Positions 8,162 through 11,104 of a stretch of DNA of 64,000 nucleotides are shown piece by piece (position 1 is the first letter of the stretch; each line of letters starts with the position of its first letter). Where the stretch lies: contig JAGXRK010000046.1 of the NCBI GenBank assembly GCA_018335755.1, positions 1 through 64,000 on the forward strand. Reading direction: 5' to 3'. The translations under genes were made by a program, and so were the position numbers. The notes below the pieces were generated by a model. It was not told where the DNA came from. It did not search any database and saw nothing but the letters and a program-made list of their open reading frames with translations. The DNA is from Ignavibacterium sp. (lineage in GTDB: Bacteria; Bacteroidota; Ignavibacteria; Ignavibacteriales; Ignavibacteriaceae).

Positions 8162-9817
8162 TTGAAAAAAATATTTTACTTCATATTATTTGGATTTTTG
8201 TTTGTATCCTCAGTTTATTTAAACTCACAGGAAAGATTAAATAATAAAAATCTGTCTGATATAATTATTGGAAGCAATTTCAGAATCTATCCCAGTAATG
8301 TAAGCCAATCTGAAACTTTTATTGTAAATCATCCTAACGATCCTGATGTACTATTTGCATCTGCTTATACGATAGTAACCAATCCTTTTTTTATCAGTGA
8401 AGGAGTATATCTTACAACAAATTCAGGTGTAAACTGGTCTGGAAGCGACACCTGCAGTGGTGCTCCCATACAATTTCATGGCGGCGAACCCGCTATTGCC
8501 ATTGATAAGGATGGTACTTTTTTATTGAATCGTTTAGGTCGGCAGCCAACTTTTATTGGCTTATACTCACATTATTCAAATGATAATGGAATAACCTGGA
8601 GTAACCAAAAAACAATTTCAACTGATGATCTGGAAAAACACTCTTTATCAAGTGATGTAAATTCTTTAAGTTTATATTATGGAAGAAGTTACGCTGTTTA
8701 TACAATGTTAGAACCACCATATAAAGTTCGAATGACATATACGAATGATGGTGGGCAGAACTGGGTTCAACCTTTTGATGTGAATAATCCCCCGCAAAGA
8801 TGCTTTGGAACTGATATTAACATTAATAAAAACAGCGAGGTGTTAGTTTGCTGGGCTGTAATGTCTGCTCCGCCTTCACCTAATGAGATAAGTATTGGAT
8901 TTGCAAAATCTAATAACGGAGGTTCTAACTGGACTGTTCAGGAAAGCCCAATTCAAACTAAAGGAATAACCGGAGTGCTTTCGCAAAAACAAAATATCAG
9001 AGTAAACAGCACTCCCAGGATTGCAGTTGATAATAGTAATAGTCCTTACAGTGGAAATATTTATATTGTTACATCACAAAAAGAACTTGCACCGGCTGGT
9101 AACGACCCAGATATTGTGCTTTTTAGATCAACTGATAACGGAAATACCTGGTCCCAGGGAATAAGGGTAAATCAGGATCCGGTTAATAATGGAAAGTTCC
9201 AGTTCTTCCCTGCCATCCATATTGATCCTCACGGAGGTATAAACATCATTTATCTCGATGACAGAAATACTACAAGTGACTCAAGCGGTATTTTCCTTTC
9301 ACGCTCAACTGATGGCGGCAATAGCTGGACAGATTACGAAATAAGTGATCATAATTTCCGACCCACTGCTGTTAGCGGAATTGGCGCAGGCAATATATCA
9401 GATCATATTGATATAACTTATACAAATGGCAAGCTTTGGCCGGTCTGGATGGATAACTCTACCGGTGTTTATCAAATATGGACTGCTCCTATAACTTTAC
9501 CACCTGTAAGTGTTGAGTACGAACAACATTTAGTTTCAGGTTTTAAACTAAATCAGAATTATCCAAATCCTTTCAATCCATCTACTAAGATCAGTTGGCT
9601 GTCACGAACTGGCAGTTGGCATACATTGAAGGTACTAGATATTCTTGGAGGAGAAATTATAACGCTCGTAAATGAATATAAACCAGCAGGTAGTTATGAA
9701 ATTGAATTTAATTCCAATGATTCCGGTAACCGAAACAAATTAACTAGTGGAATATACTTTTACAGATTACAAACTGGTGAGTTTTCAGAAACAAAACCAA
9801 TGGTTTTACTTAAGTAA
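8162..9817 (+). CDS. secreted sialidase-like BNR-repeat protein with T9SS sorting domain
   Basis: 551 residues. The start is TTG at 8162 (KKIFYFILFGFLF is an ideal signal peptide); no ATG in frame sits before it. The body is a beta-propeller with recurrent Asp-box repeats, visible as SNDNGITW, TNDGGQNW, SNNGGSNW, STDNGNTW and STDGGNSW, as in exo-sialidases and sortilin-like proteins. Sialidase catalytic residues were not established, so glycosidase activity is not claimed. C-terminal sorting domain: LNQNYPNPFNPSTKI ... SGIYFYRL ... KPMVLLK. The last 12 bp overlap the convergent gene in a palindrome. Confidence 0.88.
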   Translation: MKKIFYFILFGFLFVSSVYLNSQERLNNKNLSDIIIGSNFRIYPSNVSQSETFIVNHPNDPDVLFASAYTIVTNPFFISEGVYLTTNSGVNWSGSDTCSGAPIQFHGGEPAIAIDKDGTFLLNRLGRQPTFIGLYSHYSNDNGITWSNQKTISTDDLEKHSLSSDVNSLSLYYGRSYAVYTMLEPPYKVRMTYTNDGGQNWVQPFDVNNPPQRCFGTDININKNSEVLVCWAVMSAPPSPNEISIGFAKSNNGGSNWTVQESPIQTKGITGVLSQKQNIRVNSTPRIAVDNSNSPYSGNIYIVTSQKELAPAGNDPDIVLFRSTDNGNTWSQGIRVNQDPVNNGKFQFFPAIHIDPHGGINIIYLDDRNTTSDSSGIFLSRSTDGGNSWTDYEISDHNFRPTAVSGIGAGNISDHIDITYTNGKLWPVWMDNSTGVYQIWTAPITLPPVSVEYEQHLVSGFKLNQNYPNPFNPSTKISWLSRTGSWHTLKVLDILGGEIITLVNEYKPAGSYEIEFNSNDSGNRNKLTSGIYFYRLQTGEFSETKPMVLLK

Positions 9818-9823
9818 TACCAT
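9800..9823. repeat. palindromic shared 3' end of two convergent T9SS genes
   Basis: TTACTTAAGTAA at 9806-9817 is a perfect palindrome that reads Leu-Leu-Lys-stop on both strands. Extending to 9800-9823 (ATGGT... on the left, ...ACCAT on the right) only one base pair breaks symmetry, so each strand encodes Met-Val-Leu-Leu-Lys-stop. Confidence 0.95.
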
Positions 9824-11104
9824 TTTCTTTGTAATGCTGCGGGATATGGTAGGTTCGTTAATATTTAATTGATACAAATAAACCCCCGATGGAAGGTCAT
9901 TCAGTTCAATACTTACTGAATGAATTCCCCTGTTTCGCCAGCTGTTATCAAGTGTTTTAATTTCTTCGCCAAGAAGGTTAAATAATTTAAGACTAATAAA
10001 TGATTCATTTTCTAAAGCATATTTGATTTCAGTCTGAGCATTAAACGGATTTGGATAATTTTGAAATAAATGAAAATGATCCGGGTTTTTTAGTTTAGAA
10101 AAATCTATTACTGAAGATGGTTCCTGCGGCTGATAAACAAAGAAACTTCCTCCTTCACCCACCATAAAACCGTTTAATGAGTCAATGAATTGAACATCAT
10201 ATATCGCGGTGCTATCAGGCAGCGGATAATAATCCCAGGTTTTTCCGCCATCAAAAGTATTTAATGCCAGCTTATCTCTACCCATAGTAGCCCAACCTTC
10301 AAAATTATTTCTGAAAGAAATTGCTGATACCGTACCAAACACATCCAGAATTTCTACAGTCCAATCGATTCCTCTGTTTAAAGTTTTTAACACTTCAATA
10401 TTATAATTTTTTTCTATGTCGCTCGTTAATGCGTATGCTTCATTCGCGCTAAAAATGTGAATATCGTATGGAGGATCAGCAGTAACTAACCTTGAATCCC
10501 AGGACTTTCCTGAGTCTACTGTAGTCCAAACGACACCGACAAAATCAATGTATCCTCCTACAGCATATCCGATTTGCCTGTTGAAAAACTTCAGGTCGTA
10601 AATTGGTAAATAAATAAATGTTGAATCAATATTTTGTGGAACTAACCAGTTCTGACCTCCATCTTCAGTATATGCAAGCTCTATATCGCCGCCTATCCAT
10701 CCGCTTAATGTATCAAAAAAAACTATGCTGTATAAAAAAACATTTTCAATTCTGTAAAAACTATAATCCCAATCAATTCCGCCATTAGTAGTATTTAGAA
10801 TGATGGATCGGTATTCAGGGAAATTTTCATAGTGGACTATTCCCCATCCGAGATTTTCATCAAGAAAAAATAATTTGACTAAGTTTTCATTCCTACCTGT
10901 TTCACTTATTCGCCAGGTATTACCTTTATCGGAAGTATAAAGAACTTTACCACTATCTGCACCAACCCAAATATTAGAAGAATCCAGACAATATATTGTA
11001 TTTAGTTTTAGATCAACCGGTGTTTGAATCTTCTGCCAGTAATCTTGCGAATAAATAAGGCAGGAAAAAATGAGTATAATAATTGAAATGGATATCTTCA
11101 TCAA
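9806..11104 (-). CDS. secreted Ycf48/BNR-like propeller protein with T9SS sorting domain
   Basis: 432 residues. Signal peptide 1-19 (SISIIILIFSCLIYSQ). Residues ~25-340 form WD/BNR-type repeats of the Ycf48-like kind: GKVLYTSDKGNTW, LNTTNGGIDWDY, AYTEDGGQNW, TTVDSGKSWDS, LNTFDGGKTWDY, alternating with GW.. and GY.VG strands. Sorting domain from HLFQNYPNPFNAQTEIKY to SGVYLYQL and KKMVLLK. The function of the propeller is not recognisable. Convergent with the neighbouring cargo gene and overlapping it by 12 bp. Confidence 0.85.
   Translation of the reverse strand: MMKISISIIILIFSCLIYSQDYWQKIQTPVDLKLNTIYCLDSSNIWVGADSGKVLYTSDKGNTWRISETGRNENLVKLFFLDENLGWGIVHYENFPEYRSIILNTTNGGIDWDYSFYRIENVFLYSIVFFDTLSGWIGGDIELAYTEDGGQNWLVPQNIDSTFIYLPIYDLKFFNRQIGYAVGGYIDFVGVVWTTVDSGKSWDSRLVTADPPYDIHIFSANEAYALTSDIEKNYNIEVLKTLNRGIDWTVEILDVFGTVSAISFRNNFEGWATMGRDKLALNTFDGGKTWDYYPLPDSTAIYDVQFIDSLNGFMVGEGGSFFVYQPQEPSSVIDFSKLKNPDHFHLFQNYPNPFNAQTEIKYALENESFISLKLFNLLGEEIKTLDNSWRNRGIHSVSIELNDLPSGVYLYQLNINEPTISRSITKKMVLLK

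Follow-up and report, generated by a model that had tools for sequence, protein, structure and literature searches.

Convergent gene pairs in prokaryotes, whose members lie on opposite strands and share their last bases, commonly overlap by short stretches, with the permitted registers set by the stop codons and the genetic code (PMC2174442). The overlap length distribution of such pairs has a peak at 4 bp, in the forms CTAA, TTAA, CTAG and TTAG, and terminators of convergently overlapping genes have been reported from E. coli (PMC2174442). Separately, PMC11285876 describes a C-terminal motif with a conserved lysine, together with a C-terminal strand, as relevant to the function of the T9SS. 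The window analyzed here, a stretch of 64,000 nucleotides from Ignavibacterium sp., contains a convergent pair whose coding sequences overlap by 12 bp at 9806-9817, a segment read in both frames. This pair resembles the described ones in that opposite strands share their last bases. It differs from the usual convergent overlap in that the two genes end in one and the same functionally constrained peptide, which rules out the 4-bp register, and in that the bases they share form a perfect palindrome.

The plus-strand gene (8162..9817) encodes a BNR/sialidase-like beta-propeller body with a match to BNR_2 (PF13088, E 8.3e-10), followed by a type A sorting domain that ends in TKPMVLLK*. The minus-strand gene (9806..11104) encodes a YCF48-like propeller body that matches PSII_BNR (PF14870, E 4.8e-16), also followed by a type A sorting domain, with the tail TKKMVLLK*. 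Both score above the curated cut-off of 23 bits for the T9SS type A sorting domain TIGR04183, at 26.4 bits for the plus-strand gene and 37.6 bits for the minus-strand gene; with the Pfam model Por_Secre_tail, only the minus-strand gene passes, the other reaching 25.8 against 27 bits. Both genes are therefore predicted, from their C-terminal sorting domains, to encode T9SS type A cargo. The two domains (TIGR04183 / PF18962) carry a C-terminal strand like that described in PMC11285876 and are in themselves nothing unusual. Since the C-terminal motif with its conserved lysine is reported to be relevant for T9SS function (PMC11285876), change in the two tails is probably constrained.

Of 80 genomes from the family, 40 contain homologs of the plus-strand gene. 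Besides the window's own genome, 17 from the family keep the two genes in a tail-to-tail arrangement, a conservation that points to both being real genes. Among plus-strand gene homologs, the bodies change far more slowly than the sorting domains (L090 vs L091, L096 vs L099 and others), for example with bodies 88% identical and domains 62%, or bodies 85% and domains 54%. One homolog of the minus-strand gene (L049, G032:C95:4505-5782) carries a single in-frame TAG stop. Elsewhere, G000 holds two 787-codon cargo ORFs (C19:18201-18428 and C33:28278-28505) with equal sorting-domain scores and the same flanking 12-mer, TTACTTAACTAA; these reflect either a duplicated gene or an assembly or contamination effect, the genome being listed at 7.47% contamination.

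At their 3' ends, the genes read ATG GTT TTA CTT AAG TAA on the plus strand and ATG GTA TTA CTT AAG TAA on the minus strand, and both translate as MVLLK*. The overlap itself (9806..9817), TTACTTAAGTAA, is a perfect palindrome that encodes LLK* on either strand and is the sole overlap compatible with both tails. It lies at the center of a 24-bp near-palindrome (9800..9823) with the letters ATGGTTTTACTTAAGTAATACCAT, which encodes MVLLK* on either strand and has 11 of its 12 base pairs matched, the one exception being the wobble base of the Val codon (GTT vs GTA). The original prediction had described an LLK-stop palindrome common to both gene ends, within a 24-bp symmetry that encodes MVLLK on each strand. 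Both translations confirm the 12-bp core, and the wider symmetry is borne out apart from that single base.

The genetic code leaves these two tails very little choice. An exhaustive enumeration, which tried two convergent tails at each overlap length with all synonymous codons allowed, shows that LLK* against LLK* permits 12 bp and no other length, with four possible words, all of the form YTACTTAAGTAR. For the longer tails TKKMVLLK* and TKPMVLLK*, 12 bp is again the only possibility among lengths of 1-27 bp, and the shared sequence is forced to YTACTTAAGTAR. The combinations LIK*/LIK*, LIK*/LLK* and LLK*/LLR* permit no overlap in the same enumeration, and LLR*/LLR* and LIR*/LIR* permit only one of 4 bp. 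The usual 4-bp overlap needs T or C at the third position of the last codon, where Lys codons have A or G, and is therefore barred for Lys-ended tails. The suggestion that the shared end is a compact convergent solution was thus correct and can be put more strongly, as the 12-bp YTACTTAAGTAR is the only overlap that the code permits for these two tails.

Lys-ended tails are frequent in this genome. A sample of 1.23 Mb contains 83 cargo-like ORFs, of which 60 have Lys as their last residue (LLK in 18 cases); these counts are approximate, as ORFs came from a crude caller with an 80 aa minimum and sorting domains from a motif test. Convergent overlaps are also common in this genome, the same crude ORF call giving 17 overlapping pairs among 124 convergent ones, seven by 4 bp and two by 12 bp. 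This sample shows no significant overlap deficit at cargo ends relative to other gene ends (2/22 vs 15/102, Fisher p 0.73).

The exact word is rare in the genome, while a palindrome of such quality is not. The window contains 31 perfect 12-bp palindromes and two 24-bp spans with at least 11 of 12 positions paired; a further 1.17 Mb from this genome has 20 of these spans, or about 1.1 per 64 kb. The 12-mer TTACTTAAGTAA is expected 0.03 times per window and has two copies in the 4.27-Mb genome, and in the 1.23-Mb sample the 16 other LLK tails all have a different spelling. Across the class, YTACTTAAGTAR occurs in 127 of 391 genomes, mostly with 0-2 copies each. These counts are well below those of a reversed control word, so YTACTTAAGTAR is not an enriched element. 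Many of the copies belong to single cargo tails, since it is a possible way to write LLK*.

Comparison with relatives shows that the pair is conserved and the overlap is not. None of the 17 orthologous pairs in the family overlaps: in 14 genomes the gaps measure 0, 1, 1, 2, 2, 3, 4, 14, 16, 20, 26, 26, 53 and 55 bp, and in the remaining three they span 347-682 bp. The sister species G001 has the plus-strand gene (79% identical) with the tail KSMVLIK and a different neighbor downstream. A census of 164 genomes of the order, requiring a hydrophobic (NTN) codon before LLK* on both strands and counting ORFs of at least 70 codons as long, yielded 53 distinct sites. Long ORFs are present on both strands at one of them, the window, on one strand at 30, with cargo-type tails, and on neither at 22. 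With other residues allowed before LLK, the window is again the only two-sided site among the sampled loci.

In genome contigs, a first scan for MVLLK on both strands, with any Val codon and TAA or TAG as stop, returned no match, and a relaxed M-x-LLK scan returned three loci (Melioribacteraceae, Scytonema and Zixibacteria), all of them lacking long ORFs on one strand or both. Patterns for facing, non-overlapping tails at most 30 bp apart, which are too strict for a census of convergent cargo pairs, gave no match and then four. The only true pair of long cargo ORFs among these is L135 (G058:C2:73183-73225), where unrelated convergent genes end in KKMVLLK* and RKMILLK* with a gap of +3 bp. At L134 (G432:C62:55863-55914), facing KMLLLK* readings enclose the palindrome TATCATATGATA to form a 48-bp near-palindrome; the second ORF there has just 36 codons and is perhaps a decayed gene end. 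The original prediction looked to other convergent cargo pairs for the same palindromic end and would have treated its absence as a sign of coincidence; none was found across the 164 genomes of the order. The palindrome in the window is real, well explained and ordinary, a neat one-off coincidence.

These observations very probably describe an ordinary convergent overlap, with a sequence that the genetic code imposes and that is not a separate signal. An old convergent cargo pair, almost stop to stop in relatives, would have lost its remaining gap in the window's lineage until the coding sequences overlapped. The overlap would then have landed in the single register, 12 bp of YTACTTAAGTAR, that keeps both (K/P)MVLLK tails intact, and the palindrome follows from the overlap and the identical tails. 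The rarity of the exact word, which no other sampled LLK tail uses, counts against this account, as does G001, whose different downstream gene leaves the step of gap closure unseen. A small deletion in the window's lineage may have closed the gap, possibly by slippage between the tails, which form direct repeats on one strand. In that variant of the preferred explanation, one deletion between two copies of the 12-mer would remove the gap and leave a single shared copy. The idea follows from the sequence, since the 12-mer is its own reverse complement and two convergent tails therefore form a direct repeat; L100 (G422), where the tails CTGCTTAAGTGA and CTGCTCAAGTAA face each other across 2 bp, is a near-match of such a repeat. 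Slippage nevertheless requires two side-by-side copies of a rare tail spelling, and no intermediate was found; this particular route is rather unlikely.

The proposal that palindromic ends ease recombination between cargo genes, through tail swapping, gene conversion or inversion, fares worse. Cargo tails are indeed replaceable, as L097 (G423:C20) from another genus illustrates with the only clear replacement seen: relative to the G019 ortholog, the body of the plus-strand gene is 84% identical and the sorting domain only 24%. The last ~550 bases of this homolog consist of an FN3-like stretch and an unrelated sorting domain, and the conserved minus-strand gene lies 2 bp downstream of the replaced tail. 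The junction of that replacement, however, has no palindrome. The two sorting domains encoded in the window share 45% identity, a value inside the span of 21-47% that the pair shows across the 17 relatives. The plus-strand domain is closest to an orthologous plus-strand domain (64%), and neither figure supports the suggested swapping of tails. A stretch of 12 bp is also very short for homologous recombination. The window pair is unique among the 164 genomes, and a single two-sided site without excess similarity between its two domains is not the pattern of a recurrent recombination site. Recombination promoted by the palindrome is therefore highly improbable.

Bidirectional intrinsic terminators are a further point of comparison, as they too have a symmetric stem that lies between convergent genes and can fold in both transcripts. 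The 24 nt at the center of the junction form an RNA hairpin of -6.5 kcal/mol, and a longer imperfect hairpin (9788..9835), with T-rich stretches beside the stem, can form in either transcript (-11.1 and -12.6 kcal/mol, z ~ -4 against dinucleotide shuffles for both). These folds, the T-rich DNA adjoining the stem and the reported terminators of convergently overlapping E. coli genes (PMC2174442) are consistent with the two tails acting as a bidirectional intrinsic terminator. However, random synonymous codons that preserve the peptides and the overlap give hairpins at least as stable in fractions of 0.60 and 0.39, and at 14 orthologous junctions the corresponding fractions scatter evenly, with means of ~0.46 and 0.54. 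Against this synonymous-codon null, neither the window nor the 14 junctions support selection for a terminator hairpin. The T-rich stretches are the antisense of Lys codons. Unlike a bidirectional intrinsic terminator, the stem is A/T-rich and lies inside coding sequence, and a consensus terminator scan makes no call; the junction lacks the G+C-rich stem, followed by a U tract and stronger than coding implies, that marks an intrinsic terminator. A terminator role is thus improbable, and the hairpin arises as a side effect of the two tails, no stronger than their peptides imply. The broader idea that fixed secretion tails limit convergent overlaps and that, where two of them meet, the coding sequence supplies a T-flanked hairpin ending both transcripts is slightly less probable still.

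The window pair adds one more case to the known convergent gene overlaps, made attractive by its coding constraint. It carries little weight as a mechanism, and it warns against taking such palindromes for DNA signals. Its value lies in showing cleanly how the ways in which two genes can overlap are narrowed by a conserved C-terminal peptide.
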